DNA of 64,000 nucleotides from Longimicrobium sp. (GTDB lineage Bacteria > Gemmatimonadota > Gemmatimonadetes > Longimicrobiales > Longimicrobiaceae), in contig NZ_DATIND010000009.1 in the NCBI RefSeq assembly GCF_035474595.1, forward strand, positions 1 to 64,000. Reading direction: 5' to 3'. Of this stretch, positions 12,123 to 28,246 are shown piece after piece. The notes below the pieces were generated by a model that saw only the letters and a program-made list of their open reading frames with translations, ran no database searches and was not told the DNA's origin. A program made the translations under genes and the position numbers. Positions within the stretch are counted from its first letter, which is position 1. Each line of letters opens with the position of its first letter.

Positions 12123-13097
12123 TCACGGCCATGATTCGGACGAGAGCGGCCGCAGCACCTCCAGCAGGCGGTCGGTGTCGCGGTAGGTGTCCAGCCCCAG
12201 GCGCAGCGTGTACGCGGGGCGCTCGCAGGCGGAGCGGAGGAACGCGAGGACCTCGGCGGCGCAGGCGCGGTCGGCCAGCAGCCAGGGCGACTGCCGCATC
12301 AGCCCCGCCAGCGCCTCCGCCGCGGGGAGCGGCGACAGCACGGTCGGGAGATTCGCATCCACGCGCGGGAAGAGGAGGCCGGCGAGCGGGGCGGTCCGCT
12401 GCCAGCGCCCGGGCCAGCGCCGGTGCGGATCGACCTCGCCGCGGCGGTGCAGGGGACTGCCGCCGGCCCACCCCTCGTCCAGGTGGAAGCGCCGCGGCCA
12501 GCCTTCGACCCGGATCCCCCCATCCTCATCCCGAAACAAAACCACATGGTCGTCGCTGACGAAGCGCCACCCGGCCTCGATCAGGTTCACCGACGTGGTC
12601 GACTTCCCTGCGTGCGTATCGCCCGCCAGCAGCCATGCGCCGCCGCCGGGCGCCACCACGGCGGCCGCGTGGGCCAGCGCCCGGTGCATCCGCCCCAGCA
12701 GCAGCGCGCAGGCGATGGTGCACATCGAGTACACGTCCCAGGCCACCGCCTCCCGCGTCTCCTCGCCGAACGCGGCGGGAACGAGCCCGGCGGTCCCGCG
12801 CGCCAGGTCCGTCCATCCCCCCGAGCCCGCGGTGCAGCGGAAGACGGCGCGTCCCGCGGCCGCGTCCACCCACGCGTCCGCCGCGCCCAGCCGCAGCGCC
12901 GGCGCCCCGCCGGTCGCCTCGGCCGCCGCGGGATCGCCCGAGGCGAGGCGGATCACCGCGCCGCCGCCGGACGGAGCCGGATCGTCGTAGGGAAGAAGCG
13001 GGAGCCAGCGCTCCAGGAGCACAGCGAGCGCGGGCTCCGCTTCCACGCGGAGCCCGCCGTCGGCCAGCAGGGGAAAGATCGATGGAGAGGGGCTCAA
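12123..13097 (-). CDS. HPr-kinase-like protein, RiPP tailoring kinase candidate (kinase 1)
   Basis: 324 aa from a TTG start at 13097 that overlaps the B2 stop (ttga). Residues 159-167, GDTHAGKST, are the P-loop; FVSDDHVVLF follows about 25 residues later and corresponds to the metal/catalytic Asp region of the HprK C-terminal domain. The N-terminal 120 residues have no recognisable fold. HprK homologues in some lasso-peptide clusters (PadeK/ThcoK type) phosphorylate the C-terminal Ser of the precursor; that and the neighbouring PqqD and B2 genes suggest a peptide kinase. Its paralogue at 26448-27422 has exactly the same length and the same SDDHVVL and EGWPRRF blocks. Confidence 0.82.
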   Translation of the reverse strand: MSPSPSIFPLLADGGLRVEAEPALAVLLERWLPLLPYDDPAPSGGGAVIRLASGDPAAAEATGGAPALRLGAADAWVDAAAGRAVFRCTAGSGGWTDLARGTAGLVPAAFGEETREAVAWDVYSMCTIACALLLGRMHRALAHAAAVVAPGGGAWLLAGDTHAGKSTTSVNLIEAGWRFVSDDHVVLFRDEDGGIRVEGWPRRFHLDEGWAGGSPLHRRGEVDPHRRWPGRWQRTAPLAGLLFPRVDANLPTVLSPLPAAEALAGLMRQSPWLLADRACAAEVLAFLRSACERPAYTLRLGLDTYRDTDRLLEVLRPLSSESWP

Positions 13098-13480
13098 GCG
13101 CGCAGCACCAGCGGCTCGTGGCCGTCGCCGGAGTCCTGCCGCTCGCGGTCGGCGCGGACCACCCAGGCGTGCGCCTCGATGTCGCCCTCGCCGCTCTTCA
13201 CCCCGATCTTCACGATGGCGGGGATGCCGTAGCGGCGCAGCACCAGGCACTCGGCCACGCTGCGGTACAGGCAGGTGTTCCGCCAGCGCCGGCCGGGAAC
13301 GCGCGCCAGCAGCCGCAGCAGCCGCATGGCCGAGCCCGTCGCGCCGCGGGGAACGCGGGTCTCCGCACGCGAGCGCGCGGGGGGCCGCAGCAGCTCGGTG
13401 AGCCGCGGCCCCTCGATCCAGCGCGGCGCCGCCAGCGCGGCCCGCGCGCCCGCCAGCACCGCCCCCGCCGTGCGGATCAC
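13094..13480 (-). CDS. Lasso-peptide B2-type leader protease (transglutaminase-like)
   Basis: 128 aa from a GTG at 13480 that overlaps the PqqD stop (gtga). The diagnostic C-terminal half reads RRWRNTCLYRSVAECLVLRRYGIP (Cys70) and DIEAHAWVV (His104), matching the Cys-His pair of B2 proteases that cut the leader after the conserved Thr-x of lasso precursors. The N-terminal 60 residues are a helical region, as in the family. Usual B2 length is about 120-150. The operon order PqqD-B2 equals the split B1-B2 arrangement. It should act in the cytoplasm with the PqqD protein delivering the leader. Confidence 0.88.
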   Translation of the reverse strand: MIRTAGAVLAGARAALAAPRWIEGPRLTELLRPPARSRAETRVPRGATGSAMRLLRLLARVPGRRWRNTCLYRSVAECLVLRRYGIPAIVKIGVKSGEGDIEAHAWVVRADRERQDSGDGHEPLVLRA

Positions 13481-13752
13481 GCCGCCGCCACGATCAGCCG
13501 GCGCCGCTCCAGCTCCTCCAGCAGCCGGTCCAGCTCGCCGGCGGCCTCGTGCGGCTCCACCTCGAAGTTCGCGCACAGCTCGTCCACCAGCCCCTGCCGG
13601 TCCATCCCCCGCTCCAGTCCCTTCCACACGCACGCCGCGGTGGCGTTCAGGCGGAAGTAGTCCTTGGTGTCCATGTTCAGGAGCACCGCCTCGCCCTCCA
13701 GGTGCGCCGCCAGCACGTCGGCGGGCACGCTGTACCTCGCGTTCTCGTTCAT
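13477..13752 (-). CDS. PqqD-family RiPP recognition element (B1-like)
   Basis: 91-aa PqqD-like protein. EGEAVLLNMDTKDYFRLN forms the three-strand beta sheet that clamps leader peptides in RRE domains, followed by ATAACVWKGLERG and the helical bundle to residue 90. In RiPP systems such proteins present the precursor to the B2 protease and tailoring enzymes. I use the ATG at 13752; a GTG at 13767 overlapping the upstream stop (gtga) is also possible and would add five residues. Translational overlaps on both sides tie it to an upstream beta-propeller lipoprotein and the downstream protease. Confidence 0.88.
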   Translation of the reverse strand: MNENARYSVPADVLAAHLEGEAVLLNMDTKDYFRLNATAACVWKGLERGMDRQGLVDELCANFEVEPHEAAGELDRLLEELERRRLIVAAA

Positions 13753-13763
13753 GCGCTCTTTCG

Positions 13764-14900
13764 TCACGGCGCCGCGGCCACCGCGGGGTGCCCCACGGTG
13801 CCGGTGCCGGTATCGATCAGGGTGCTGGCTGCCGGCGTGGCCGGGTCGGTCCAGCGCAGGTGCGTAACGCCGCCCGCGGTCTCCAGGTACACCAGCCGTC
13901 CGTCCGGCGTCCACGCCGGCTGCGACTTGCTTCCCGCGCCCGAGGTCAGCTGCTGTACCGCGCCGCCGGAGATGGTGAGGAGGAAGATCTCCACCGAGCC
14001 GGTGCGGTTGGATACGAAGGCCAGCGTCTTCCCGTCGGGGCTGAAGGCGGGCTCCACCTCGGCGGTGTTCCCCCCCGCCAGCAGCGACGGGGCCGCGTTG
14101 CCCACCTGCTCGAAGATGTCGGCGGTGCCGTTGGCGGTGGCCACGAAGGCCAGCGTGCTCGACGGCGCCCACGACGGGTACGTCTCGATGGAGCCGTCGA
14201 AGCCGAAGGCGGGGGCGGCGCGCTGGGGGTTCGAGGCGTTCGCGCCGGCCACGTACACCTTGGTGACGTCGCTCTCCAGGTAGGCGTACGCCAGCCGCTG
14301 CCCGTCGGCCGAAAGCGCCGGCGTGGTCTCGTCGCGCGGGGTGGTGGTCAGGCGCGTGTTGGCGCCGCCCGCGAGCGGCACGCTCCACAGGTCGCCGTTG
14401 CCGCTGCGGTAGCTCACGAACACCACGTTCGACCCTGCCACCGTGGGGTCCTGGTCGTCGCCCGGGTCGGTGGTCAGCGCCGTCAGGTTCTGCCCGTCCA
14501 GGTCCACCCGCCAGATGTCGCGGTTGCCCGCCACCACCCGCTCGAACACCACCACCGGCGGCGCGGCCACCGTCAGCTCCGCCGTCCCCACCTTCTTCGG
14601 CGCGCTGGCGGTGATGGAGACGGCGCCGGCGCGCAGCAGCTTCACCGTGGCGTTGTCCACCACCTGCGCGGCGTCGGCCGGGCGCACCGTGAGCGTGTAG
14701 TCCCCCGGCGCCAGCGGCTGCCCCGCGGAGGTGACGCTGAGGGTGATGGTGGAGCCGCGCTCCAGCCGCCCCGAGGTGGTCACCGCCAGCGGCGACGCGA
14801 TGTCGGTGGGCCCGCCGCCGCCGTCGCAGGCGGCAAGGAGCAGCGACGCGGTAGCCAGTGCGGCCAGGGCGCGGGTGGGGCGGAAGCGGAGAGTGGACAT
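13764..14900 (-). CDS. TolB/WD40-like beta-propeller lipoprotein
   Basis: 378 aa. MSTLRFRPTRALAALATASLLLAAC gives a lipobox with Cys25. Residues about 35-125 form an Ig/Big-like beta domain. From about 130 come five or six TolB-type blades, each with D-x-W/F and P-x-(W/F)SPDG-like phrases (GNRDIWRVDLDG, PALSADGQRLAYA, PAFSPDGKTLAFVSNRTG, PAWTPDGRLVYLE). Such propellers bind proteins or peptides in the periplasm. The last base of its stop overlaps a possible GTG start of the PqqD gene, so it is in the RiPP operon, which is unexpected for a surface protein. Closely related to the propeller of the 15200-16603 gene. Confidence 0.85.
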   Translation of the reverse strand: MSTLRFRPTRALAALATASLLLAACDGGGGPTDIASPLAVTTSGRLERGSTITLSVTSAGQPLAPGDYTLTVRPADAAQVVDNATVKLLRAGAVSITASAPKKVGTAELTVAAPPVVVFERVVAGNRDIWRVDLDGQNLTALTTDPGDDQDPTVAGSNVVFVSYRSGNGDLWSVPLAGGANTRLTTTPRDETTPALSADGQRLAYAYLESDVTKVYVAGANASNPQRAAPAFGFDGSIETYPSWAPSSTLAFVATANGTADIFEQVGNAAPSLLAGGNTAEVEPAFSPDGKTLAFVSNRTGSVEIFLLTISGGAVQQLTSGAGSKSQPAWTPDGRLVYLETAGGVTHLRWTDPATPAASTLIDTGTGTVGHPAVAAAP

Positions 14901-14999
14901 GCGAGCCCTGCCGGCGGGGGTCGGGAGAAGGAGTCCGGGAAGATCACACCGAACACTGAAAATTTGGGGGGATGAGGCGATTTGCACCAGTCCCGCGAG

Positions 15000-15197
15000 G
15001 AAGTGCGGAAGTGCGTGAGTCGTAGGCGCGCGCTCGGCCGGTGATCCCGCCAACACGCACGGAGGTCACGAAGCTGTCGGCTTGCGCCGGTGCTCTCCGT
15101 GACCTCCGAGCATTCGTGAGGCCTCGTCCCGAACGCGAAAGTGCGCCGGATCACAGGGATCCGGCGCACTTCCGCATTCACGCACTTCCGCACTTCG
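15000..15197. repeat. Intergenic palindromes, including gtgcgtgag family
   Basis: Between two propeller genes. A forward arm gaagtgcggaagtgcgtgag lies near 15000-15020 and reversed words cgcacttccgcattcacgca near 15166-15185. An 11-bp pair cggaggtcacg/cgtgacctccg sits at 15060-15070 and 15098-15108. The terminator at 15139-15171 lies within. No gene. Confidence 0.7.
15139..15171 (-). terminator. Terminator of the 15200-16603 lipoprotein gene
   Basis: Perfect 14-bp stem, aagtgcgccggatc (15139-15152) with its complement at 15158-15171, loop acagg. It lies 29 bp after the stop codon on the minus strand and belongs to the gtgcg hairpin family. Confidence 0.65.
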
Positions 15198-15199
15198 GT

Positions 15200-16603
15200 C
15201 TAGAACCGCACCCCCGACGCGTGGTCGGCCGCGAACGGCGTGGTGATCGACTTCACCGTCGCCGGGCTGTCCGGGTCCAGCATGCACAGGTGGAACACCC
15301 CGCCCTGCACGCAGGTGTACACGATCAGGGCCCTGGAGCGGCTGGAGCCGTCGTACACCCACGTCGGCGCGCCGTCGCTGCCGGTGCGCGTGGTCAGCCG
15401 CGTGACCGTGCCGGTGCCCACCGTCAGCATGTACAGCTCGGTGTCGCCCGAGCGGTTGGAGGCGAACACCACCCGCGTGCGGTCCGGGCTCCACGCCGCC
15501 TCCACGTCGGCGGAGGTGCCGCCGGTCAGCAGCGAGGCCGTCCCGCCGGTCTTCAGCGGGAAGATCCCGCTCACCGAGTAGATGTCCGCCGACCCGCCGG
15601 CCGCCGAGGTGAACGCCAGCCGCGACGAGTCCGCCCAGTTGGGGCTGGCCTCGATGGCGTCGCCCGAGCCCGGGTTGGCCGCGGCCGCGCTGTCGGCGGT
15701 GGGGCGGCCGTACCAGATCTTGGTGACCCCGCCGGGCGCCCCCTGCGCCCAGGCCAGGCGCCTGCCGTCGGGCGAGAGCGCCGGGCTGGTCTCGTTCAGC
15801 CCCGTCGTCGCCGTCAGCCGGGTCTCCGTCCCACCCTTCAGGGGCACGGAGTACAGCTCGGCGTTCCCGTCGCGGTAGCTGGTGAACACCACCGTCCCCT
15901 GCGCCACCGTGGGGTTCGCGTCGGTCAGCGCGCTGGTGCTCAGCTTCTTCAGGTCGTTGCCGTCCACGCCCATCCGGTAGATGTCGCGGTTCCCGCCCGG
16001 CGCCATCTCGAAGACGATGGTGGGAACGATCGGGGTGGAGACGTACACGGTGAAGGCGAACGAGACCACCGAGGGCGGCATCTTCCACTTCCAGCGCTGC
16101 GGCGGCGTCACCGAGTCCGGCGCCAGCGTGCCCGGGTAGAAGAAGAAGGGCTGCCCCGAGGCGCTGAACGTTCCCACGTCGCCGCCCGCCATCTCCACGA
16201 AGCCCGTGCCCGCCGTAACGTTGGGCCCGGTGGCGAAGAACACCGAGATGCCGCTGACCGTGGTGCCGTCGGAGCCCATCCGCTGCGTGAGCAGGTTCTG
16301 CACGGTCACGTCGGCCGAAAAGATCGAGTCGGCGCCGTACGCCACGTTGCTGGACTGCACGAACACGTACTGCCGCTGTCCGCCGATGATGCGGTCGCCG
16401 CGCAACCCCCCGGGCGCCGCGTCGGCGCAGGAGAGCCGCTTCGACCGCACGTCCGCGTTGCAGGAGATGGCCGCCACGGTGTTGGGCGGCGTGATCGCGG
16501 GCGGATCGGCGGGGGTGATCCCGCCGCCGTTCTCCGAGCACGCGGCGAGGGCCAGGATCGCGAAAGCCGCCGCCTGTGCGCGGCGGATGCGGAGCTTCGT
16601 CAT
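15200..16603 (-). CDS. Lipoprotein: shared N-terminal beta domain plus TolB-like propeller
   Basis: 467 aa. MTKLRIRRAQAAAFAILALAACS is a lipoprotein signal (Cys22). Residues about 38-185 are a beta domain also found in the 18143-19513 protein: both have an N-terminal Cys...SC pair, a VQNLL/IRNLIPQ strand, PNVTAGTG or PTVTAGTG, DGVGTF or DVGTFSASGQPF, and a W-containing strand before PSVV/PSTV. Residues about 195-460 form a TolB-like propeller (GNRDIYRMGVDG, PALSPDGRRLAWA, AAWSPDRTRVVFASNRSG). A surface or periplasmic binding role is likely. The ATG at 16603 follows a weak ggaa. A promoter candidate lies at 16694-16721. Confidence 0.85.
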   Translation of the reverse strand: MTKLRIRRAQAAAFAILALAACSENGGGITPADPPAITPPNTVAAISCNADVRSKRLSCADAAPGGLRGDRIIGGQRQYVFVQSSNVAYGADSIFSADVTVQNLLTQRMGSDGTTVSGISVFFATGPNVTAGTGFVEMAGGDVGTFSASGQPFFFYPGTLAPDSVTPPQRWKWKMPPSVVSFAFTVYVSTPIVPTIVFEMAPGGNRDIYRMGVDGNDLKKLSTSALTDANPTVAQGTVVFTSYRDGNAELYSVPLKGGTETRLTATTGLNETSPALSPDGRRLAWAQGAPGGVTKIWYGRPTADSAAAANPGSGDAIEASPNWADSSRLAFTSAAGGSADIYSVSGIFPLKTGGTASLLTGGTSADVEAAWSPDRTRVVFASNRSGDTELYMLTVGTGTVTRLTTRTGSDGAPTWVYDGSSRSRALIVYTCVQGGVFHLCMLDPDSPATVKSITTPFAADHASGVRF

Positions 16604-16922: not shown

Positions 16923-16947
16923 GCCAGTCCAGCGTCGGCGATCGCGG

Positions 16948-18078
16948 TCAGTTCGACGGCTTCGCCGCCAGCGCCGCCTCGATCCGCGCGAGCCGCGCCT
17001 CAAGGTCGGAGATGCGCCGGTCGCGCTCGGCCACCTGCCGCTGCAGCTCGGCCGTCCGGTTCTCCAGCGCCTTCACCGCCGCGAAGTTCACCCCGTCGAT
17101 GTCGAGAAGGCCGATGGCCTTGTCGTCGGTGCCCAGGCCGAATGCCGCGCGGAAGTCCTCGGCGAAGGGCCCCATGTGCCGCACCTGCGCCCCCTCGGAG
17201 ATGTAGCTCCAGGTCGACACCGGCACGCCGCGCAGCCGCGCCAGCAGCTCCTCGCCGTCCACGCTGCCGAAGTGGTCCTTCAGGGTGCGGCTCGACGAGC
17301 AGCTGAACACGCCCGAGCCGGCGGGCAGGTTGCACCCGGTGGTCAGCGTGGCGTTGGTGCGGAAGCGGAAGCCGCCCGCGTAGCGCGCCGCGAACTCGTT
17401 GTTGGCCACCGCCTCGATCGAGTCGGTGGTGCTCTCGTCACCCGCCACGAACACGCCGTCGTGCCCGTTGGCGCTGGCCCGGTGCCCCAGCGCCACCGCG
17501 TAGTCGGCGTCGGCGGTCACGCGGTAGCCGATGGCCACGGCGCCCTGCCCGTTGCCGGCCAGGCAGTTCCCCGAAGCGTCGATGGAGCCGGTGGTGTTGG
17601 TGAAGCCGATGGCCACCGAGCCGAAGCCGCAGGCGTTGTTGCTGGCGCCCGCCGAGAACCCGGCCGTCCCGCCCACCTCGTTGCTCCCGCCGAAGGCGGC
17701 GCCGTCCACGCCCGTGACCTTGGTCTGGTCGCCGAAGGCGAAGGTCCCGAACGCGGTCGCCATCGAGCTCTCGCCGCCGGCCCACGAGTAGAAGCCGATG
17801 TTGGCGTCGTCCCACTCCGTGCCGTTGGCGTGCCCCAGCCGGAAGGCGGCCTTGAAGGGGTAGTACATCATCCGGTATCCCGCGCCGGTGGCGGGGATGA
17901 TGCCGATTCCCAGGTTGGTCACGGCCACCACCCCGCCCGCGCTGTCCACGCGGAAGCGGTCGCCCGGGGGCGAGCCGGAGCGCAGGCGCAGCAGGATGTC
18001 GGACTGCGCGGGGGCCTGCGAAACGGCCGCGAGCGTCGCCAGGGCCGCGAGAGCGAGGGTTCTCATCCGATGCATCAT
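16948..18078 (-). CDS. YadA-head-like fibre protein with S74 chaperone domain (fibre 1)
   Basis: 376 aa with a Sec signal (MMHRMRTLALAALATLAAVSQAPA). After a conserved QSDILLRLRSGSPPGDRFRVDS block, residues about 90-250 are YadA-head-type repeats (AVAIGYRVTADADYAVALGHRASANGHDG) that normally build a trimeric left-handed beta roll. SSRTLKDHFGSVDGEELLARLRGV starts an S74 intramolecular-chaperone domain with the Ser-Lys pair, and the C-terminus is a coiled coil (ALENRTAELQRQVAERDRRISDLEARLARIEAAL). Such proteins form trimeric surface fibres. It carries an extra Cys-containing insert (NNACGFG, GNCLAG, TTGCNL, FSCSS) absent from its two paralogues. It follows the lipoprotein gene by 64 bp. Confidence 0.87.
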   Translation of the reverse strand: MMHRMRTLALAALATLAAVSQAPAQSDILLRLRSGSPPGDRFRVDSAGGVVAVTNLGIGIIPATGAGYRMMYYPFKAAFRLGHANGTEWDDANIGFYSWAGGESSMATAFGTFAFGDQTKVTGVDGAAFGGSNEVGGTAGFSAGASNNACGFGSVAIGFTNTTGSIDASGNCLAGNGQGAVAIGYRVTADADYAVALGHRASANGHDGVFVAGDESTTDSIEAVANNEFAARYAGGFRFRTNATLTTGCNLPAGSGVFSCSSSRTLKDHFGSVDGEELLARLRGVPVSTWSYISEGAQVRHMGPFAEDFRAAFGLGTDDKAIGLLDIDGVNFAAVKALENRTAELQRQVAERDRRISDLEARLARIEAALAAKPSN

Positions 18079-18142: not shown

Positions 18143-19513
18143 TCAGAACGACTGCGCCTGGATGCGGAACGAGGTGTTGGTGAGCCGGCCCAGGTCCACC
18201 CTGAGCGGCGCGCGCACCGTGAGGTTGCCGATCAGCGAATAGGTGCCGGAGACCCTCAGGAACGGAACCGTTCCCGCCACCGTGCGCGCGATCCCCGACA
18301 GCTCCAGCACACCCACGGTGTTGGTGATCGAGGCCGAGTTGGTGGTCAGCACGTCGCCCGAGGCGTTCAGGTTGAAGGCGCCCAGGTGCACCGTGGGCAC
18401 CACCCCGCCCGGCGTAAGGTCCAGCACCTCCAGCCCCGCCACGGCCTCGTTCGCGGTGAGGTTCGGGAAGTTCGTGGCCGAGGTGGTGTCGGGAACCAGC
18501 GCCGTGTCCTGCGGCACCGGGGCGATGCTGTCGGGAAGCCAGTTGCTCCCCGTTTCCCACACGTTGCTGGTGGCGCCCGTCCAGGTGCGGCGGATGGGCT
18601 GCACGTTCAGGGTGATCGAGCCGCCCACCGCCACGGTGGCGCCCGAGATGTTCACCCGGTTGGCGGTGACGCTCATCACCGGCGCGCCGAAGCGGTAGCC
18701 GTGCACCACGGCCTGGTCGCCGGTCTCGGAGATGTAGTCGGCGAGCAGCGCGTCGGCCGGGGTCACGGTCCAGTCGATCGCGGTGGCCAGCGAGTCGATG
18801 TTGCCCACGGGGCTGCGCACCACGGCCGTCAGCGTGCGCAGCGTGCCCTCGCGGATGTTGGGGTTCGCCTGCACGTCGATGTAGCCGTTCTCGTACTTCA
18901 CCGGCGCGGCCACGTACAGCAGGAAGCTGAACGTGGTCACGGTGCTGGGCATGTTCAGCTGCCAGGTCTTGGGCGCCGACACCTGGAATTGCTGCAGCAC
19001 CGTGCTGTACTGGTAGAACGGCTCGCCGGCGGCCAGGAAGGTGCCCACCCCGTCGCCCACCACCGAGATGGTGCCCGTTCCCGCCGTCACGGTGGGCCCG
19101 CTGTAGAAGAAGATCCGCACCCCGTTGGGGTCGGGCGTCACGCCGTCGGTGGTGCCCAGCGCCTGCGGGATCAGGTTGCGGATGGTCACGTCGAAGGTGA
19201 AGGCCTGCGTCCCCGCGTTGTAGCTTGCGTTGGTCGAGGTCAGCTTCACGTACACGTTCTGGCTTCCCACGATCAGGCCGCGGATCCGGTCGTTGGCCTG
19301 GGTGGCGGGGCCGCAGCTCACGGTGCGCTGCGCCACGTTGCCCGTGCACTCCAGCGCTGCGATGGGGATGGGGTTACCCGGCGTGGTGGGGGTGCCGGGG
19401 CCGGATGGCGGGGTGGGGGTTACCGGGTTCGCCCGGTCCGTGCATGCCGCGGCTACGACCAGCACTGCCAGCGCCGCGGCCAGCCGGCCTGGGTAACGCC
19501 TGGGGAGTTGCAT
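18143..19513 (-). CDS. Secreted lipoprotein with modular beta domains
   Basis: 456 aa. MQLPRRYPGRLAAALAVLVVAAACT gives a lipobox (Cys24), then a Pro/Thr-rich linker. Residues about 42-190 match the N-terminal domain of the 15200-16603 protein. Residues about 285-456 match the C-terminus of the 24254-26035 protein: TWTGATSNVWETGSNWLPDS, GAFNLNASGDV, SGIARTVAGTVPFLRVSGTYSL, ending FRIQAQSF. The second part resembles the parallel beta-helix modules that begin with a W-x-(G/N)-x-W patch. It starts 23 bp after the radical SAM gene, so it belongs to the precursor B transcript. Role unknown; surface display is inferred. Confidence 0.83.
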   Translation of the reverse strand: MQLPRRYPGRLAAALAVLVVAAACTDRANPVTPTPPSGPGTPTTPGNPIPIAALECTGNVAQRTVSCGPATQANDRIRGLIVGSQNVYVKLTSTNASYNAGTQAFTFDVTIRNLIPQALGTTDGVTPDPNGVRIFFYSGPTVTAGTGTISVVGDGVGTFLAAGEPFYQYSTVLQQFQVSAPKTWQLNMPSTVTTFSFLLYVAAPVKYENGYIDVQANPNIREGTLRTLTAVVRSPVGNIDSLATAIDWTVTPADALLADYISETGDQAVVHGYRFGAPVMSVTANRVNISGATVAVGGSITLNVQPIRRTWTGATSNVWETGSNWLPDSIAPVPQDTALVPDTTSATNFPNLTANEAVAGLEVLDLTPGGVVPTVHLGAFNLNASGDVLTTNSASITNTVGVLELSGIARTVAGTVPFLRVSGTYSLIGNLTVRAPLRVDLGRLTNTSFRIQAQSF

Positions 19514-19536: not shown

Positions 19537-20574
19537 TTATGGGACGCGCCCGGCGTAGGTGAGCGCGACGAGGCGTCGCGGCGCCGCGGGGCCGTGGGGC
19601 CCGGCCGCACCGTGCCATGGACTGCCTGGGAACTCGCGGATCCACTCCATCTTCCCCAGCGCCCGCGCGCAGCGGATGCAGGGAAAGCGGTCCAGCTCGC
19701 CGCCGCCGGCCGCCAGCCGCGCGCTCGCCTGCCGCAGCGCCGCCAGCCGCCCGGTGTACCGCTCCCACGCCGCGGTGAACGAGCCGCGGGTCAGGTCGGC
19801 CACCACGTCGGCCTCGTTGTCGCCGTACTCCGAAAGCTGGCAGCACAGCGACAGCCGCCCGCGCGCGTCCACGTAGACGCGGCGGTGCTCGAAGGTGTCG
19901 CAGGCGGGCTCGGGGCCGTCGAAGGGCGCGCCGTAGTCAAGGTACACCCCGGTGCGGCGTCCCTCGGTGCCCAGCGCCAGGATCTCGTCCCGCGCGCCGT
20001 ACCACTCGCGCGGGGCCAGGTCGCTGTCGCGCCCGGCGCTCCCGGGAACCGGCTGCGCCAGCGCGAAGTGCAGGCTCACCGCCCCCAGCGCCTCGGCCAG
20101 GTCGGCCGCCTGCCGCAGCTGGTGCCGGTCGCGGCGGTCCACCACGAACCCCAGCGAGGTGGGGACCTGCCGGCTGGTGAGCAGCGCCACCGCCAGCAGC
20201 ACGCGCCGGAACGAGCCGCGCCCGCGCTCGGCGTCGTGCACCGCCTCGTCCGCGCCCGACAGCGAGAGCCGCACGGCTGTGGGAGGATGGCGGTCCAGCC
20301 CCGGCATCAGCCGGCGCATGTGCCACCCGTTGGTCACGAAGCGGTAGCTCACCCCGCGCTCGTGCAGCGAGGCGATGATGCGCTCCCACTGCGGGTGGAT
20401 GGTGGGCTCGCCGCCGGTCATGCTCACGCCCACCTCGCCGAACAGGGCCCGGGCCTCGTCCACGGTGCGGGCGATGAGGCCGGGGTCCAGGTTGCGAACC
20501 GTGGTCACGTCGTCGCGGATGCAGTGCGGACAACGCAGGTTGCAGTGTTCGGTGATGGCGAAGCCGAGAAGCAT
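19537..20574 (-). CDS. Radical SAM protein with SPASM-like C-terminal Cys cluster
   Basis: 345 aa. TEHCNLRCPHC (Cys11, 15, 18) binds the [4Fe-4S] cluster that cleaves S-adenosylmethionine; VSMTGGEPTIHP is the GGE motif and RLSLSGADEAVHDAERG the strand that follows. The C-terminal region has CDTFEHRRVYVDARGRLSLCC and FPCIRCAR, a Cys set like SPASM/Twitch auxiliary clusters of peptide-modifying enzymes. The gene begins 25 bp after a 57-aa precursor-like peptide gene, the usual placement for a RiPP maturase. The modification cannot be predicted; the peptide has Gly/Pro-rich and Thr/Ser residues as possible targets. Confidence 0.87.
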   Translation of the reverse strand: MLLGFAITEHCNLRCPHCIRDDVTTVRNLDPGLIARTVDEARALFGEVGVSMTGGEPTIHPQWERIIASLHERGVSYRFVTNGWHMRRLMPGLDRHPPTAVRLSLSGADEAVHDAERGRGSFRRVLLAVALLTSRQVPTSLGFVVDRRDRHQLRQAADLAEALGAVSLHFALAQPVPGSAGRDSDLAPREWYGARDEILALGTEGRRTGVYLDYGAPFDGPEPACDTFEHRRVYVDARGRLSLCCQLSEYGDNEADVVADLTRGSFTAAWERYTGRLAALRQASARLAAGGGELDRFPCIRCARALGKMEWIREFPGSPWHGAAGPHGPAAPRRLVALTYAGRVP

Positions 20575-20599: not shown

Positions 20600-20773
20600 T
20601 CAGGGAACGACGGTGCTGCCGCCGCCGCCGGGGCCGCCGCCGCCGGGAATGGCGGGGCCGGTGGCCAGCGTGAGCTCGGTCAGGCGCGGCAGGTCGGCCA
20701 CCGCGGGGGCGATCCAGGGACGGCGTGCGGCGGGCGGAGCCGCCCGTGCCGCGGACGATGGACGTGTGCCCAT
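20600..20773 (-). CDS. RiPP-like precursor peptide B, 57 aa
   Basis: ATG at 20773 preceded by ggagg 6-10 nt upstream. The first 18 residues are Ala/Arg/Pro-rich. Residues 20-36, WIAPAVADLPRLTELTL, match the lasso leader pattern YxxPxLxxxGxxxxxT with W for Y, V for L and P for G; the spacing is exactly conserved with peptide A at 26158-26298. If a B2 protease cuts two residues after the leader start of the Thr35-Leu36 pair, the core is residues 37-57: ATGPAIP, then GGGGPGGGG and STVVP. It contains no Asp or Glu, so a lasso macrolactam is not possible by the known chemistry. Directly upstream of a radical SAM gene. Confidence 0.72.
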   Translation of the reverse strand: MGTRPSSAARAAPPAARRPWIAPAVADLPRLTELTLATGPAIPGGGGPGGGGSTVVP

Positions 20774-21567: not shown

Positions 21568-21568
21568 A

Positions 21569-21626: not shown

Positions 21627-22037
21627 TTACTGGGGACCGCCTCGTGCGCGCTTGCAGGCGGCCTCGAGAACCGGCCGCACCTGCGCATCGCCGGCCTTCG
21701 CCTTCTGCATGCAGCTGGCGTAGCTCTCCATCGACCCGAGCCGCTGGTTGTAGTCCTTCGCCAGCGCGATGGAGTCGTCGCGCGCGATGCGGATCGAGTC
21801 TTCCACCGTCATCGGGGCCGCCGGGGCGGGGGCCGCGGCCGGCTGGGCCGGGTCCGAGCCCGCGTCCACCGGTGCCGGGCTCGCCGCCGCCGCGGGCGGG
21901 GCCTGCGCATCGTCGTCCTCGTCGCCGTTGCCGCGGCAGGCGCCCAGGAGCGCGCCGGCCAGCAGTGGCAGAACGGCCAGCCGCCGCGCGCCGCGAAGAG
22001 CGGGCGCGGCGGCCGCCAGGGTGTGCCCGAGCCTCAA
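21627..22037 (-). CDS. Small lipoprotein with acidic/Pro-Ala linker
   Basis: 136 aa from a TTG at 22037 that overlaps the stop of the upstream fibre gene (ttga) and is preceded by aggag 8 nt upstream. A long N-terminal region leads to LAVLPLLAGALLGAC, a lipobox with Cys34. RGNGDEDDDAQ and a Pro/Ala-rich linker follow, then a helical segment (MTVEDSIRIARDDSIALAKDYNQRLGSMESYASCMQKAKAG...VLEAACKRARGG) with two Cys. Possibly a small lipoprotein that anchors or caps the fibre encoded upstream; that is inferred only from translational coupling. I do not recognise a family. Confidence 0.7.
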   Translation of the reverse strand: MRLGHTLAAAAPALRGARRLAVLPLLAGALLGACRGNGDEDDDAQAPPAAAASPAPVDAGSDPAQPAAAPAPAAPMTVEDSIRIARDDSIALAKDYNQRLGSMESYASCMQKAKAGDAQVRPVLEAACKRARGGPQ

Positions 22038-23074
22038 TGCCGCTGCTCCTGCAGGCGGCGGACGGCGGCCTCGAGGTCGTCCAGGCGCTGGCGGGTGGCG
22101 TTCAGCTCGGAGCGCAGCTGCGCCACCTCGGCGGTGCGCGCCTGCAGCTCGGCGGTGCGGGTCTCCAGCGCCTTGATGGCCGCCAGGTTCACGCCGTCGA
22201 AGTCGCTCATGTTGATGGTGTGGTCGTCGCTCGTGAACCCGAAGGCGCGGTGCCAGTCCTGCGCCATGGGCCCGATGTGGAAGGTCGAGCGGTCGGCCTC
22301 GTCGCGGTAGCGCCAGGTAGTCACCGGCAGGAGCCGCAGCCGCGCCAGGATGTCCTCGCCGTCGACCGAAAGGAAGTCGTTCTTCCGGTTGCGGTCCGAG
22401 ATCACCGCCCACGAGCTGCCGCCGGCCGACACCTGCACGCCCGTGGTCATGGTGGCGTTGCTGAACAGGCGGATGCCGCCCGCCGCGCGCACCGTGAACT
22501 GGTTGTTCGCGCTGGCCTGCGTGCTGTCGGTGGTGGACCCGTCGGAGAACACGATGGCGCCGGCGTGGCCGTTGGTGGACGCGCGCTGCCCGATGGCCAC
22601 CGAGTAGTCGGCGTCGGCGGTGGTGCGGTAGCCGAGGGCCACCGCGCCGGTGCCGTCGGCGTTGGCGGTGTAGCCCAGCGCGTTGCTGTAGCTGCCCAGC
22701 GCCGTGCTCTGGTACCCCATGGCGAACGAAGCGAGGCCCAGGGCGATGGTGTTGTAGCCGCCCGCCCAGGTGTAGTAGCCCGTGTTGGGGTCGTCCCACT
22801 GCGTGCCCGCCGAGCCGATCGAGCCCGCGCGGAAAGCCGCCTTGTTGGGGTGCCACATCAGCCGCTCGCCCGCACCGGTGAACGGAATGATCCCGACCCC
22901 CAGCACGCCCTTGGCCACGAAGCCGCTGGCGCTGTCCACCCGGAAGCGGTCGCCCAGCGGCGAGCCGGAGCGCAGGCGCAGGAGGATGTCGGACTGCGCG
23001 GACGCGCTCGCCGGTGCGAGCACGGCGCCCACGAGGGCAGAGGCCAGGAGGGCCACTCCGATCTTCGCTTTCAT
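22034..23074 (-). CDS. YadA-head-like fibre protein with S74 chaperone domain (fibre 3)
   Basis: 346 aa from the ATG at 23074 (a GTG at 23080 is also in frame). MKAKIGVALLASALVGAVLAPASASA is a Sec signal. QSDILLRLRSGSPLGDRFRV opens the mature protein; head repeats (TALGSYSNALGYTANADGTGAVALGYRTTADADYSVAIGQRAST) cover about 105-215. SDRNRKNDFLSVDGEDILARLRLLPVTTWRYR is the S74 start with Ser and Lys, and the last 55 residues are a coiled coil (ETRTAELQARTAEVAQLRSELNATRQRLDDLEAAV). Very close paralogue of fibre 2, 62 bp upstream, so a recent tandem duplication is likely. Confidence 0.87.
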   Translation of the reverse strand: MKAKIGVALLASALVGAVLAPASASAQSDILLRLRSGSPLGDRFRVDSASGFVAKGVLGVGIIPFTGAGERLMWHPNKAAFRAGSIGSAGTQWDDPNTGYYTWAGGYNTIALGLASFAMGYQSTALGSYSNALGYTANADGTGAVALGYRTTADADYSVAIGQRASTNGHAGAIVFSDGSTTDSTQASANNQFTVRAAGGIRLFSNATMTTGVQVSAGGSSWAVISDRNRKNDFLSVDGEDILARLRLLPVTTWRYRDEADRSTFHIGPMAQDWHRAFGFTSDDHTINMSDFDGVNLAAIKALETRTAELQARTAEVAQLRSELNATRQRLDDLEAAVRRLQEQRH

Positions 23075-23135
23075 ATGCACACTCGTCCGGTGCGGGGAAT
23101 GCGCGGCACCCCGGGGGTGCCGCGGCGGGAAAGTC

Positions 23136-24194
23136 CTACCGCGGAGCGTGCGCGGCCTGCTCCAGCTGCCGCAGCCGCTCCTCGAAGCGCGCGTTCTGCT
23201 CGCGCAGCGCGGCCAGGTCGGCGCGCAGCGAGGCGTTCTCGGCCTGGAGCGCCTTCACCTGCTGGCCCTGCGCCGCGGTGCGGCGCTCCAGCGCCTGCAC
23301 GCCGGCCAGGTTCACGCCGTCCAGGTCGCTCATGTTGATGGTGCGGTCGTCGGCGGTGAAGCCGAAGGCGCGGTGCCAGTCCTGCGCCATGGGCCCGATG
23401 TGCAGGGTGGAGCGGTCGGCCTCTTCGCGGTAGCGCCAGGTGGTCACCGGCACGCCGCGCAGCCGCAGGAGCAGGTCCTCGCCGTTGATCGCGCGGAAGC
23501 CTTCCTTGCGGTTCACGTCCGAGATCACGTTCCACGAGCTGCCGCCGGCGTTCAGCGACACGCCCGTGGTCTTGGTGGCGTTGGTGTACAGCCGCACGCC
23601 GCCGGCCGCGCGCAGCGAGAACTGGTTGGCCGCGCTGGCCAGCACGCTGTCGGTGCTCGACTGGTCGGAGAGCACGATGGCGCCGTTGAAGCCGTTGGTG
23701 CTGGCGCGCTGCCCGATGGCCACCGAGTAGTTGCCGTTGGCGGTGCTCAGGTAGCCGAGCGCCACCGCGCCCACGCCGTCGGAGCGTGCGCTGTATCCCA
23801 GCCCCACGCCGTACGACTGCAGCGCCCACGAGCCGTAGCCGGCGGCGATCGAGTAGTTGCCCTGGGCGATGGTGTTGAAGCCCGAGGCCAGCGAGTAGAA
23901 TCCGAAGCTGCCGTCGTCCCACTGGGTGCCGTCCACGCCGCCGGTGCGGAACCCGGCCTTGAACGGGTGCCACATGGTGCGGTCGCCCGCGCCGGTGAAC
24001 GGGATGATGCCGATGCCGATGAAGCCCTTGGCCACGAAGCCGCTGGCGCTGTCCACGCGGAAGCGGTCGCCCAGCGGCGAGCCGGAGCGCAGGCGCAGGA
24101 GGATGTCGGACTGTGCGGCGGCCGGCGTGGCCTGGACCGCCGCGAGAAGGACGGCGCCGAGGGCCGCCATGCGAAGCTGGGTGAACGTCTTCAT
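23136..24194 (-). CDS. YadA-head-like fibre protein with S74 chaperone domain (fibre 2)
   Basis: 352 aa; Sec signal MKTFTQLRMAALGAVLLAAVQATPAAA. The same block order as the other two fibres: QSDILLRLRSGSPLGDRFRVDSASGFVAKG, head repeats (YGVGLGYSARSDGVGAVALGYLSTANGNYSVAIGQRASTNGFNG), SDVNRKEGFRAINGEDLLLRLRGVPVTTWRYREEADRSTLHIGPMAQDWHRAFG, and a long C-terminal coiled coil rich in Gln, Glu and Arg (residues about 295-352). It would assemble as a trimer, with the S74 domain guiding folding and possibly cleaving itself. Starts 60 bp after the 24254 lipoprotein gene. Confidence 0.87.
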   Translation of the reverse strand: MKTFTQLRMAALGAVLLAAVQATPAAAQSDILLRLRSGSPLGDRFRVDSASGFVAKGFIGIGIIPFTGAGDRTMWHPFKAGFRTGGVDGTQWDDGSFGFYSLASGFNTIAQGNYSIAAGYGSWALQSYGVGLGYSARSDGVGAVALGYLSTANGNYSVAIGQRASTNGFNGAIVLSDQSSTDSVLASAANQFSLRAAGGVRLYTNATKTTGVSLNAGGSSWNVISDVNRKEGFRAINGEDLLLRLRGVPVTTWRYREEADRSTLHIGPMAQDWHRAFGFTADDRTINMSDLDGVNLAGVQALERRTAAQGQQVKALQAENASLRADLAALREQNARFEERLRQLEQAAHAPR

Positions 24195-24253: not shown

Positions 24254-26035
24254 TCAGTTGGAGTCCGCCTGCAGGCGGAAGCCCGACACCGTCAGCCGTC
24301 CGGCATCCACCTGGATGGCGGCGCGCGCGTTCACGTTGCCGGTGAGCGAGTAGGTGCCCGTGACCCGCAGGGTGGGCACCTTCCCCTGCACCGTGCGCGC
24401 GACGCCGGACAGGAACAGCCGCCCCGAGGTGTTCGTGATCCCGCCGGTAAGCCCCGCGGTCACGTTGGCGCTGGCGTTCATGTCGAAGGCGTTCAGCGCG
24501 ATCAGGGCCCCGTCCTCCACCGTCACGCCGCCGATCTGCACGTTGGCCGCGAGCGACGGGTCCAGCGGCGCGGCCACCGGGATCACCACCGAGTCCAGCG
24601 ACATGGGCACCGCGGCCGGGCTCCAGTTGTTGTTGGTGAACCAGTCGGTGGTCCCCGCGCCGGCCGTCCAGGTGCGCGTGACGCCCGCCACGTCGATGAG
24701 CTGCGTGCCCGTCAGGCGGCGGCCCACGGCGCTCAGCGTGCTGCTGCCGTAGCCGGTGTAGGTGACCACCTGGTTGGCGCTCCCCGACACCAGCGCGGCC
24801 GCGGCGCCCAGGGTGGCCGGCGGGCCCAACTCGGTCAGGTGCACCGTGTCGGCCTGCGCGGTCTTCACGTTGCCGTAGCGGTCCATCGCCTTCACCGTCA
24901 CGGTGAAGGGCACGTTGGTGGCCGGGCGCCCCGGGGTGCCTCCGCGGAAGTACGCGGCGCAGGCGTCCACGGTCTCGCTCGGGCGCAGGATCATGAGCCC
25001 GGCGTACGCCCCCGGCGTCACGATGGTGCGGGTGGGCGACGCCGCGGTGCCGGCGATGCGCAGGCCGCAGATCTGCCGCTGCCCGGGGTAGTCGGGAACC
25101 GCCGCGTCCATCACCGGGCTCCCGTTCAGCACCGTGACCGTGGTGGCCCCCAGCGACGTGGCGCGGTCGCGCAGGCGGCGCACGGCGGCCGTGTCCTGGC
25201 CCTCCTCGATGCTCTCGGTCATCCGCGTCTCGGTGTCCTCGACGATCACCGCCTGGAACGAGAGCGTGAACACGTCGTTCGCGGCCACGGACTGCAGCGG
25301 AACGCGGAACGCCACCGTGAGCAGCCCGTCCCACTGGTTGGGGTCGGCGGCGGCCGACGGGAGGGTGCGGTTGGCGTTCGTGTTCTTGTTGCGGACCACG
25401 AAGCCGTACGGGAAGATGCTGGTGACCCCGGCGGGCGGGGCGATGGCGGCCACCTCGGCCTCGGTGAACGCCTGCAGCACGTCGGGATACGGCGCCAGCA
25501 TGGTCACGAAGTCGGTCCCCAGCGCCACCGCGCCCGAGGGCGCGATGAACGGCGCGATGGTGGGGTCGGCGTTGGTGTTGTCGAACTTGCGCAGCACCGA
25601 CACGGGGGTGCCGGCGATGGTTCCCGTGGTGCTGGCCATGATGAGGGTGAGGTTGTTCAGCGGCGCGGCGGTGCCGTTGCGCACCCGGAAAGTCGATACC
25701 AGGTAGCGCTGGCCGCCGCCGGTGCGGCTGCCGTCCGAGAACGAGCCCGTGTTCACCGACTCGAGGCCCACCCCCGAGGCCACCGGGTTCAGCGACGCCG
25801 AGATCGCGCCGGTTTCGCCCGGAAGGCGCATGGGCGTGGCCGTGGAGGTCATCTGGTCGGTGCCGATGCCGGTGATGGTGATCTCGTACACCCCCAGCAC
25901 GCGCGGCGTCTTGGGGCCGCCCGTGTCGGGAGGAGTGGTGCCCGTGAGCGTGCGGTCCTGCGTGCAGGCCGCCGCGGCGAACGCCACCAGGACGAACGCG
26001 GCACGGATCGAGGCGAAGCGCATGGGGTTTACCAT
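24254..26035 (-). CDS. Large secreted lipoprotein with beta modules
   Basis: 593 aa. MVNPMRFASIRAAFVLVAFAAAACTQ is a lipoprotein signal (Cys24); the ATG at 26023 is an alternative start. Residues about 45-290 form an N-terminal beta-rich domain (QRYLVSTFRVRNGTAAPLNNLTLIMAS). Residues about 300-425 have an Ig-like strand pattern with two Cys (ICGLRIAG, DACAAYF). Residues about 430-593 are homologous to the 18143-19513 protein C-terminus: TWTAGAGTTDWFTNNNWSPAA, NAFDMNASANV, SGVARTVQGKVPTLRVTGTYSLTGNV, ending FRLQADSN. Downstream of precursor A (122 bp) and upstream of two fibre genes. Likely cell-surface; function unknown. Confidence 0.83.
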   Translation of the reverse strand: MVNPMRFASIRAAFVLVAFAAAACTQDRTLTGTTPPDTGGPKTPRVLGVYEITITGIGTDQMTSTATPMRLPGETGAISASLNPVASGVGLESVNTGSFSDGSRTGGGQRYLVSTFRVRNGTAAPLNNLTLIMASTTGTIAGTPVSVLRKFDNTNADPTIAPFIAPSGAVALGTDFVTMLAPYPDVLQAFTEAEVAAIAPPAGVTSIFPYGFVVRNKNTNANRTLPSAAADPNQWDGLLTVAFRVPLQSVAANDVFTLSFQAVIVEDTETRMTESIEEGQDTAAVRRLRDRATSLGATTVTVLNGSPVMDAAVPDYPGQRQICGLRIAGTAASPTRTIVTPGAYAGLMILRPSETVDACAAYFRGGTPGRPATNVPFTVTVKAMDRYGNVKTAQADTVHLTELGPPATLGAAAALVSGSANQVVTYTGYGSSTLSAVGRRLTGTQLIDVAGVTRTWTAGAGTTDWFTNNNWSPAAVPMSLDSVVIPVAAPLDPSLAANVQIGGVTVEDGALIALNAFDMNASANVTAGLTGGITNTSGRLFLSGVARTVQGKVPTLRVTGTYSLTGNVNARAAIQVDAGRLTVSGFRLQADSN

Positions 26036-26157
26036 CGGTTGCGGGTGTGCTCTCCGAGCACCACGAGCGACAGCGCAGAAGCGCCGGTCAGAAGGAGAGA
26101 GGCGAGAACCAGAGGCGGGCGGCAGCGGCGTACGCTACCGCCCGCTGAAGCAGCGCG

Positions 26158-26298
26158 TCAGGGGCCGACCGGAACGCTTACGGTCAGCGTGACCAGCGTG
26201 AGGCCACCCAGGTCCTCGACCGAGGGCCGCACGAACGGCTTGCGAGCCTGCGCCGGGGCGCGCTGTACGACGGGTGCATGGGCGTGCTGTTCGGGCAT
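26158..26298 (-). CDS. RiPP-like precursor peptide A, 46 aa (below usual ORF cut-off)
   Basis: The frame runs from ATG at 26298 to TGA at 26158. The peptide starts MPEQHAHAPVVQ and continues with QARKPFVRPSVEDLGG and LTLVTLTVSVPVGP. Residues 22-37, from Phe22 to Thr37, fit the lasso leader pattern YxxPxLxxxGxxxxxT exactly in spacing, with Phe for Tyr and Val for Leu. Cleavage after Thr-Leu would leave a core of only eight residues, TVSVPVGP, with no Asp/Glu, Cys or Lys. Its own promoter lies at 26375-26403, and it sits between kinase 2 and the large lipoprotein. The ribosome site is weak (gagctgag). Homology to peptide B is visible by eye (R-P-[FW]-xx-P-x-V-x-D-L). Confidence 0.72.
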   Translation of the reverse strand: MPEQHAHAPVVQRAPAQARKPFVRPSVEDLGGLTLVTLTVSVPVGP

Positions 26299-26374
26299 CT
26301 CAGCTCACAACGAAGGAAGTGAATACTGTACTGCGCGAACGGAGTCCAACGGGCGGGGCACAAGTCCAACTCCA

Positions 26375-26403
26375 ACATTAGGAACAGATTGGGCCGCGGT
26401 CAA
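26375..26403 (-). promoter_or_regulatory. Promoter for precursor A and the lipoprotein-fibre unit
   Basis: On the minus strand TTGACC (26403-26398), exactly 17 nt, then TAATGT (26380-26375). It lies between the kinase 2 stop and precursor A, giving a leader of about 70 nt. The surrounding 100 bp is AT-richer than its neighbours. This implies the kinase-formyltransferase genes and the precursor are separate transcripts. Confidence 0.7.
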
Positions 26404-26447
26404 GCTCGGGTGCACCTGCGGGCGCCCCTTTGCGACTTCGCACGACG

Positions 26448-27422
26448 TCAGGAGACGCCGAACACCGGGGAAAGCGCCATCTGCAACGTTTTCACGTTGC
26501 AGTAGCTGTCGCGGCCGAGCCGCAGGTCGAACGCCGGGAGGCGTGCGGCGGCCTGGAGCAGGCCCAGCAGCGGACCCGCCGCGCCGGCGTCGGCGAGCAG
26601 CCAGGGCGTGTGCCGCAGGAGTTGGGCCAGCGCGGCGGCCGGGTGCAGCGGCTCGACCGCCGTGGGCAGATCCGCCTCGACCCGCGGGAAGATGAGCCCG
26701 GCCAGCGGGGCGGTGCGGCGCCACCGCCCCGGGCCGAACCCCTCCGGGTCCACCCGCGAGCGGACGCCGGCCGAGCTTCCCGCCGCGTATCCGTGGTCCA
26801 GGTTGAAGCGGCGCGGCCACCCCTCGGCGCGGAGGGCGCCGCCGGGGGCGTGCTGCAGCACCACGTGGTCGTCGGAGAGCCAGTCCCACCCGGCGCGGAT
26901 GAGGTTCACGCAGGTGGTGGTCTTGCCGCTGAAGCTCCCGCCGGCCAGCAGCCAGGCGCCGCCTCCCCGGGCGACCACCGCGGCGCCGTGCACCAGCGGG
27001 CGGCCCAGGCGCCCCAGCAGGAGCGCCGCAGCGATGGTCAGCGCGGAGGAAACCTCCACGATCGCCGGTGCCTCGCCGCGGGCATCGATGTGGAGGGTGG
27101 CGCGGCCGGCGGCGAGCTCCACGCGCCCCCCGATTCGCCCCTCCGCCCCGGCGATCACGACTTCGCCGTCCAGCACCCATCCCCCCACCCCCCACATCTC
27201 CATGTTGGGCTCGCCGCCGGGGCGGGCCACCTCCGGCTCTCCGGCCTCCACGCGGATCAGCGCGGCGGCGGAGGCGGCGGAGACGAGCGGGCGGTCCAGC
27301 CGCGGCATCCACGGCTCCGCCAGCTCGCGCAGGCCGGGATCGGCGACGATGGCGAGCGAGCCGTCTTCCAGCAGCGCCTGGGCCGCGGCGGGCGGAGCGT
27401 CGGGGGGGAGCGTGGCCGTCAT
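26448..27422 (-). CDS. HPr-kinase-like protein, RiPP tailoring kinase candidate (kinase 2)
   Basis: 324 aa, equal in length to kinase 1. ATG at 27422 overlaps the formyltransferase stop (atga). Residues 161-169, GGSFSGKTT, are the P-loop; WLSDDHVVLQ follows, then EGWPRRFNLDHGY. The C-terminus (DLRLGRDSYCNVKTLQMALSP) corresponds to LRLGLDTYRDTDRLLEVLRPL of kinase 1. The N-terminal 115 residues differ more. HprK-type domains with this layout phosphorylate peptide or protein Ser/Thr; the nearest candidate substrate is peptide A, with Thr and Ser in its core, encoded 149 bp downstream. Substrate assignment is inference. Confidence 0.8.
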   Translation of the reverse strand: MTATLPPDAPPAAAQALLEDGSLAIVADPGLRELAEPWMPRLDRPLVSAASAAALIRVEAGEPEVARPGGEPNMEMWGVGGWVLDGEVVIAGAEGRIGGRVELAAGRATLHIDARGEAPAIVEVSSALTIAAALLLGRLGRPLVHGAAVVARGGGAWLLAGGSFSGKTTTCVNLIRAGWDWLSDDHVVLQHAPGGALRAEGWPRRFNLDHGYAAGSSAGVRSRVDPEGFGPGRWRRTAPLAGLIFPRVEADLPTAVEPLHPAAALAQLLRHTPWLLADAGAAGPLLGLLQAAARLPAFDLRLGRDSYCNVKTLQMALSPVFGVS

Positions 27423-28246
27423 CGGGCTGGGGTGCCGGCGGGATGGAGATCGGTGGGCCCCGGCGCGAGGGCATCCGGAGCGAGGGAAAGGTCGCCGGGG
27501 TCGCAGCGCGCGGCCCACCGGTCGAAGACGATCTTCGGCGCGCCCGCGGCGGCGGCCGCTTCGGCGGCGGCGAGCGCGGCGGGGTCGGTCACCGCGCGGC
27601 AGAGCGGGTGCCGCTCGTGCTGGGGCGTTCCCGCGGGGAGGGGCCCCGCCGCCGCGGCCGCCGCGATCTCCGCCGCCATCTCCACCCACAGCGCGCCGGC
27701 CGCGCGGCGGAGGTCGCCCAGCGTCTCGCCGCCCGCGAGGCGGACCAGGCGGCGGGAGATGATGGGCCCGGTGTCGATCCCCGCATCCACCCGGTGCGCG
27801 GTGCAGCCGGGCGGCACCGCGCGGAGGACGGAGTTCTCCACCGGGCCGTTCCCGCGGATCCACGGGAGGAGCGCGGGATGGACGTTCACCGTTCCTTCAC
27901 GCGGAACCGCGAGGATCTCGTCGCCCACCACGCCGCAGCCGGCGAGGAGGAGGACGTCGGGCGCCAGGGAGCGGAGGTCGCGGACCATCCGCGCCCCGTT
28001 CAGCGGTCCGGTGACGGAAACCGTCGCGGCCCCCCGGAGCTCTCGCGCCGCGCGCCACGCCCGCAGCCGGCGGCGCGCCCACCGCAGCGCGCGGCGGATC
28101 GCGCCGGGTGCGCCCGTGCGCGCGGGCCCGTCCACGTAGACGAGCACGGCCGCGGGGCGGGCGCCGCGCGCGTCCAGCCGCGCCAGCATGCGCGCGACCT
28201 GCACGCCGCCGCGCGTGACGACCACGACCCGGCGCTTCATCGACAT
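27419..28246 (-). CDS. Formyltransferase-domain protein (Fmt/PurN fold)
   Basis: 275 aa. VNVHPALLPWIRGNGPVENSVL contains the Asn121-x-His123 pair, and GCTAHRVDAGIDTGPII contains Asp158; these are the three catalytic residues of 10-formyl-THF-dependent formyltransferases. MSMKRRVVVVTRGGVQVARML starts the Rossmann-like domain. It lacks the C-terminal OB domain of tRNA formyltransferase, so it is not Fmt itself; the tail (about 185-275) is Ala/Pro-rich. In clusters, such proteins formylate sugars, amines or peptide N-termini. Coupled to kinase 2 by atga overlap, so it may decorate the same molecule. The ATG at 28249-like alternative two codons later (MKRR) is possible. Confidence 0.82.
   Translation of the reverse strand: MSMKRRVVVVTRGGVQVARMLARLDARGARPAAVLVYVDGPARTGAPGAIRRALRWARRRLRAWRAARELRGAATVSVTGPLNGARMVRDLRSLAPDVLLLAGCGVVGDEILAVPREGTVNVHPALLPWIRGNGPVENSVLRAVPPGCTAHRVDAGIDTGPIISRRLVRLAGGETLGDLRRAAGALWVEMAAEIAAAAAAGPLPAGTPQHERHPLCRAVTDPAALAAAEAAAAAGAPKIVFDRWAARCDPGDLSLAPDALAPGPTDLHPAGTPAR

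Follow-up and report, generated by a model that had tools for sequence, protein, structure and literature searches.

Organization of the locus

The DNA analyzed here, a 64,000-nucleotide stretch of Longimicrobium sp. (contig NZ_DATIND010000009.1, positions 1 to 64,000; the window), carries on its minus strand, between 12123 and 28246, a locus for putative ribosomally synthesized and post-translationally modified peptides (RiPPs). Profile matches, a structural model of kinase 1 and synteny confirmed the presence of every component listed in an initial annotation of the window, namely a PqqD-family protein, a B2 protease, two HprK-like kinases (kinases 1 and 2), a formyltransferase, a radical S-adenosylmethionine (SAM) enzyme and two short precursor peptides (A and B). 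The PqqD-family protein, a discrete RiPP recognition element (RRE; 13477-13752, PF05402 at 1.1e-16), the B2 lasso-type cysteine protease that is the probable leader peptidase (13094-13480; NF033537) and kinase 1 (12123-13097) are encoded in a run in which each coding sequence overlaps the next by 4 nt, and the same overlap joins the formyltransferase (27419-28246; PF00551, 2e-16) to kinase 2 (26448-27422). The peptide B gene (20600-20773) is preceded by a GGAGG ribosome-binding site and ends shortly before the radical SAM gene (19537-20574; PF04055, 2e-20); it encodes a leader of the form W..P.V..LP.L..LTL and a Gly-rich core ending in STVVP. Peptide A (26158-26298) has the leader F..P.V...G.....T and a very short tail with one Ser.

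The intervening 16 kb also holds surface proteins that are conserved, form part of the locus and are likewise encoded on the minus strand. A secreted PD40/TolB-like β-propeller (13764-14900) adjoins PqqD in most relatives. The Lip18 domain is present both on a lipoprotein that carries it at the N terminus together with a PD40 propeller (15200-16603) and on a separate lipoprotein (18143-19513, with the β-sandwich domain at 18872-19369). Three surface proteins with a YadA head and an S74 chaperone (16948-18078 and, within 22034-24179, 22034-23080 and 23136-24179) are interleaved with the RiPP genes and kept in relatives; the last has an ambiguous start and is 67% identical over the match to its neighbor. 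Lip24, a lipoprotein that has its C-terminal region in common with the Lip18 proteins (24254-26035), adjoins peptide A.

Conservation of two modules in Gemmatimonadota

The initial annotation regarded the system as split over this distance. The locus is instead composed of two adjacent modules, each of which is compact in relatives. Module B comprises peptide B, the radical SAM enzyme, a Lip18-domain lipoprotein, a TolB/PD40 propeller, PqqD, B2 and kinase 1, and is found together in the relatives L074, L075, L079 and L083 and in distant Gemmatimonadota (L096, L097, L101, L104 and others). The block occurs in several families across the phylum; in some relatives single genes are absent, have been rearranged or are cut off where a contig ends. 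Module A comprises peptide A, kinase 2 and/or the formyltransferase, Lip24 and S74 proteins (L072, L073, L080, L082, L086, L089); the formyltransferase is found without kinase 2 in L086 and L089, and kinase 2 without the formyltransferase in L080 and L082. BLAST detected no RRE beside peptide A, and the genomes encoding peptide A have the module-B PqqD and/or B2 located elsewhere, so that recognition and cleavage of peptide A probably depend on the RRE and protease of module B.

The initial annotation proposed examining co-occurrence in related genomes, and we did so across 298 Gemmatimonadota genomes (E<1e-50 for the radical SAM enzyme, E<1e-80 for the module kinases), with hypergeometric p values that treat genomes as independent. 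The radical SAM enzyme was found in 11 genomes, a strong peptide B match in 12, and both in 10 (p ∼6e-16); the module kinases were found in 12, of which 11 also encode peptide B (p 4e-18). The eleventh radical SAM genome (G140) encodes a divergent peptide close to its radical SAM gene, and there is thus no radical SAM genome in this panel that has kept the enzyme and lost the peptide. Within a species-level genome collection, all 14 close relatives of the radical SAM enzyme (at least 52% identity) belong to Gemmatimonadota, one being a Longimicrobium protein that is 83% identical. A search of plasmids with the radical SAM enzyme returned distant partial matches only.

Precursor peptides

Peptides A and B have in common the aromatic-xxPx[LVI] leader with a Thr 15 residues on that is typical of lasso precursors, but neither matched the NCBIfam lasso leader model. 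The peptides are not chance open reading frames: in distant Gemmatimonadota the radical SAM gene is again preceded by a peptide B homologue, and peptide A homologues adjoin kinase 2 and/or formyltransferase homologues in several relatives. The search pattern used to collect 38 distinct peptide B homologues included W, P, LP, L and LTL, and the 38/38 invariance of these residues is therefore not evidence of conservation. The position three residues after the leader Thr (Thr+3) lay outside the pattern, and is Thr in 30/38 and Ser in 6/38; a further conserved Ser is located near the C terminus. Most cores start with Gln (24/38) or Ala. The initial annotation stated that no acidic core residue is present, which is correct for the two window peptides and does not extend to the family: an acid is absent from 17/38 peptide B cores, present in 21/38, and at positions 7-9 in 9/38. 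In all eight peptide A homologues the leader Thr lies at aromatic+15 and a Ser at Thr+3 to +5, two of them reading ETLLS, and the tails are mostly shorter than 10 residues.

Peptide B is also scattered as orphan genes. There are four copies in this genome (C9, C46, C52 and C65), four in genome G018 and five in G027. The core of the C46 orphan is identical to that of the window peptide. Other Trp-leader peptides were seen near a kinase in L078 (3039-3203) and L084 (3139-3297, also near PqqD and B2), in loci where no radical SAM gene was found; their leaders have LG where the radical-SAM-linked leaders have LP.

Modifying enzymes

Profile comparison identified the lasso RRE TbiB1 as the closest PDB relative of the PqqD protein (5e-24), with LppB (PDB ID: 9x8z) at 2e-6. 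B2 scored 49.8 bits against the lasso B2 family NF033537 (cut-off 33), and its Cys70 and His104 are invariant. Kinases 1 and 2 are HprK relatives whose sequence scores fall under the family cut-offs, and the two types form clusters on a tree without a resolved single origin for each. The predicted structure of kinase 1 (predicted local distance difference test score 86) matches HprK/P and phosphoenolpyruvate carboxykinase (PEPCK) in the PDB, with E values down to 1e-7, and all 16 relatives compared keep H143, K165, D182 and D183; as modeled, kinase 1 adopts an HprK/PEPCK fold with His-Lys-Asp-Asp catalytic residues. These four residues are required in lasso kinases, which act on the linear precursor (PMC9266682).

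Besides its CxxxCxxC motif, the radical SAM enzyme has five more invariant cysteines (C225, C244, C245, C299 and C302), which suggest an auxiliary cluster. Formyltransferases have an Asn-His-Asp active site, and N121, H123 and D158, invariant among homologues of the window enzyme, fit this arrangement. In three other Gemmatimonadota loci (L197, L200 and L201) a kinase, PqqD and B2 are adjacent with no cyclase within the surrounding 11-14 kb, and the trio may be wider in distribution than the radical SAM version.

Absence of a cyclase and the lasso clusters of the genome

Two cyclase queries detected no cyclase at any module A or B locus. There was no match in 53 of 54 loci, and the sole match, L091, has no peptide and no radical SAM gene. 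Two cyclases were found elsewhere in the genome, the place where the initial annotation had advised looking for one that might act on these peptides. Both score best against the lasso cyclase family and both lie beside their own YxxP precursor and RRE. Cluster C91 (L010, G000:C91, 6539-9407) is complete and canonical, with its own precursor, cyclase, B2 and PqqD, and C26 (L011, G000:C26, 5434-10120) has a precursor, cyclase and PqqD together with an HprK kinase and a methyltransferase, and lacks a B2; the only B2 genes found in the genome are those of C91 and the window. The leader aromatic is Tyr in both lasso precursors, Trp in peptide B and Phe in peptide A. In Bacillota, leader Tyr versus Trp determines the choice of RRE (Popov et al., PMC13381572), and the same logic may separate the pathways here. 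The locus does have the discrete RRE and B2 protease of lasso systems. A lasso identity for the peptides, implied by the "lasso-type" label of the initial annotation, was rejected: the module loci lack a cyclase, and an Asp or Glu at core positions 7-9 is absent from the window peptides and from 29/38 peptide B cores. The broader part of that annotation, a leader-guided RiPP pathway with an RRE, B2, HprK-type kinases and a radical SAM enzyme and without a cyclase, agrees with our data, the enzymes being kept with their peptides in relatives.

Association with the Lip18 surface domain

Lip18 is a secreted domain with a confident predicted β-sandwich structure; a fold search of the PDB gave weak matches to carbohydrate-binding-module-like and other β-sandwich proteins, none with E<0.001. 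It is multi-copy, with 12 copies in this genome and 24 in G003. Lip18 was found in 12/12 genomes encoding peptide B versus 2/21 others (p 3e-7), in a 33-genome panel that was hand-picked with peptide B status known and whose members are not phylogenetically independent. Both of the Lip18 genomes without peptide B have remote relatives of the module. At the level of loci, Lip18 lies within 5 kb of 13/26 peptide B loci (0.38 expected) and of 6/14 orphan peptide B loci (0.25 expected); none of the three orphans in this genome has Lip18 nearby. That the gene set travels with a multi-copy surface domain suggests a surface-acting peptide and not an antibiotic lasso, and the pattern of genes suggests that the product works with surface proteins, perhaps as an attachment, ligand, cofactor or signal.

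Comparison with known systems

The closest published system and nearest mechanistic precedent is the linear polyphosphorylated peptides (LPPs; Popov et al. 2026, PMC13381572), in which an RRE and an HprK kinase act without a cyclase and the leader peptidase is of the signal peptidase type. The LPP consensus, YxxPxVLxHQxIxFETxxS, places the leader Thr at aromatic+15 and the Ser phosphorylated on the linear precursor at Thr+3 (PMC13381572). A cyclase-free RRE/HprK pathway accordingly has a precedent; what is new here is the scattering of peptide B as orphan genes and the link of Lip18 to peptide B genomes and loci. The locus resembles LPP in its discrete RRE, aromatic-xxP leader, HprK kinase, lack of a macrolactam cyclase and lasso clusters in the same genome. 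The Ser of peptide A, at Thr+3 to +5, is in line with the LPP phosphosite spacing, and peptide B mostly has Thr at Thr+3. The locus differs in having B2, a radical SAM enzyme and Trp and Phe leaders, in the conservation of its cores, in its orphan precursors and the surface proteins linked to it, and in an RRE whose profile is nearer to lasso RREs than to LppB. The LPP SipW-like signal peptidase, nucleoside triphosphate (NTP) transferase and MsbA-like transporter were not seen among the locus proteins scanned, no genome-wide search being made, and B2 probably replaces the signal peptidase. With these three not seen at the locus and with a radical SAM enzyme and B2 added, the system is not LPP sensu stricto.

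Phosphorylated lasso peptides of the paeninodin type (PadeK, ThcoK, PsmK; PMC9266682) also combine a PqqD RRE and B2 with a His-Lys-Asp-Asp kinase acting on a Ser of the linear precursor, but the present locus has no cyclase and includes a radical SAM enzyme, and most cores have no usable ring acid. The SynChlorMet (SCM) cassette (TIGR04248-04251) unites relatives of PqqD, the HprK-like ScmC and radical SAM enzymes; it has two radical SAM enzymes where the window has one, and the window proteins score far under the cut-offs (ScmC 25/125, ScmD 25/100, ScmE/F 75/400 bits). We know of no B2 in SCM. Mycofactocin and pyrroloquinoline quinone (PQQ) maturation (MftB-MftC, PqqD-PqqE) pair an RRE and a radical SAM enzyme with a short peptide bearing an aromatic-xxP-like leader; here an HprK kinase and B2 are present, and homologues of PqqB/C or MftD/F were not recognized at the locus. 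Searches of the available literature on RRE plus HprK plus radical SAM, and on SynChlorMet, turned up no matching paper.

Proposed pathway and alternatives

Judged from gene content and conservation, we consider it probable that the locus makes RiPPs without a cyclase from two precursor modules, with a single RRE and a single leader peptidase probably serving both, and that the product is surface-linked. PqqD would bind the aromatic-xxP leaders, through the Trp of peptide B and the Phe of peptide A, and a hydroxyl of the linear precursor would be phosphorylated, by kinase 1 in peptide B and by kinase 2 in peptide A. The most likely phosphosite would be the Ser or Thr 3-5 residues past the conserved leader Thr or, in peptide B, the Ser near the C terminus. 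The radical SAM enzyme would add a further modification in the Gly-rich core of peptide B, and the formyltransferase may, on guilt by association, formylate and so cap peptide A or its product. B2 would then cut off the leader near the conserved Thr. The resulting short phosphopeptide would be linear or radically modified and no lasso and, once exported, would act with or bind the secreted Lip18/Lip24-type lipoproteins and the neighboring propeller and S74 surface proteins. Several observations weigh against this pathway. The third catalytic acid of B2 shows no positional conservation among relatives, the lack of a B2 in C26 means that the window B2 could also serve that cluster, and the formyltransferase occurs in just 5/298 Gemmatimonadota genomes. 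LppK rejects Thr in place of Ser (PMC13381572), whereas peptide B mostly has Thr at this position. A transporter gene was not recognized in the window locus, the three orphan peptide B genes of this genome (L172, 7879-8052; L090, 9968-10123; L173, 7938-8132) sit among unrelated genes, and the Lip18 association may stem from shared ancestry or genome ecology.

Given the two lasso cyclases of the genome and the missing B2 of C26, the cyclase of C91 or C26 could act in trans and close a ring on either peptide once the window RRE and B2 have processed it. We regard this as very improbable: the cyclases accompany their own YxxP precursors and RREs, the module is unaccompanied by a cyclase in every relative, peptide A tails are mostly far too short, and the peptide B cores, which mostly begin with Gln or Ala, have no acid at positions 7-9 in 29/38 and none at all in 17. 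That the genes are an unlinked, chance assembly in a surface-protein locus, with peptides that are not substrates, would fit the interruption of the RiPP genes by surface proteins in the window; with synteny kept across families and co-occurrence at p <1e-15, this explanation is largely refuted and hardly credible.

Two other explanations accept the peptides as substrates and assign them a different end. In a PQQ- or mycofactocin-style route to a cofactor or redox tag, the radical SAM enzyme and RRE would act on the peptide C terminus, B2 would cut, and the product would serve the adjacent propellers. The top family scores of the radical SAM enzyme are to ScmF and mycofactocin MftC, a PD40 propeller gene usually lies beside PqqD, and the conservation of the peptide B core is unusually high for an antimicrobial. 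MftA ends in Val-Tyr, which the Val-Phe end (TVF/SVF) of 19/38 peptide B cores resembles; yet the C-terminal aromatic is missing from this genome's peptide B and from several relatives (VVP, VIP, VII, VCP). To our knowledge the PQQ and mycofactocin pathways include no kinase, and no PqqB/C-like or dehydrogenase gene was recognized in the locus, so that we find this route unlikely. A secreted, pheromone-like signal, with separately controlled orphan genes, a single maturation machinery and Lip18-domain receptors, would account for scattered precursors that keep conserved cores and in some cases adjoin Lip18 proteins. Against it, a sensor kinase or regulator was not recognized in the window locus and the Lip18 proteins resemble fused surface or enzyme domains, and we think a signaling role quite unlikely.

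Implications

Returning to the cyclase-free, surface-linked pathway, the findings extend the idea of a cyclase-free, kinase-tailored RiPP from Bacillota to Gemmatimonadota, with another leader peptidase and a radical SAM enzyme. B2 and HprK kinases, the usual lasso hallmarks, would have a non-lasso role here, so that loci of this kind will be mis-called in genome mining. With a RiPP machine, orphan precursors and a surface domain linked genome-wide, the role of such peptides becomes directly testable. We tentatively suggest, as a possibility that the present data leave doubtful, that one cytoplasmic RRE/B2/kinase/radical SAM machine matures many scattered, near-identical peptides, which are delivered to a multi-copy family of surface β-sandwich proteins and decorate or gate them. 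If this is true, the RiPP would be a structural or ligand part of the cell surface and not a released metabolite.

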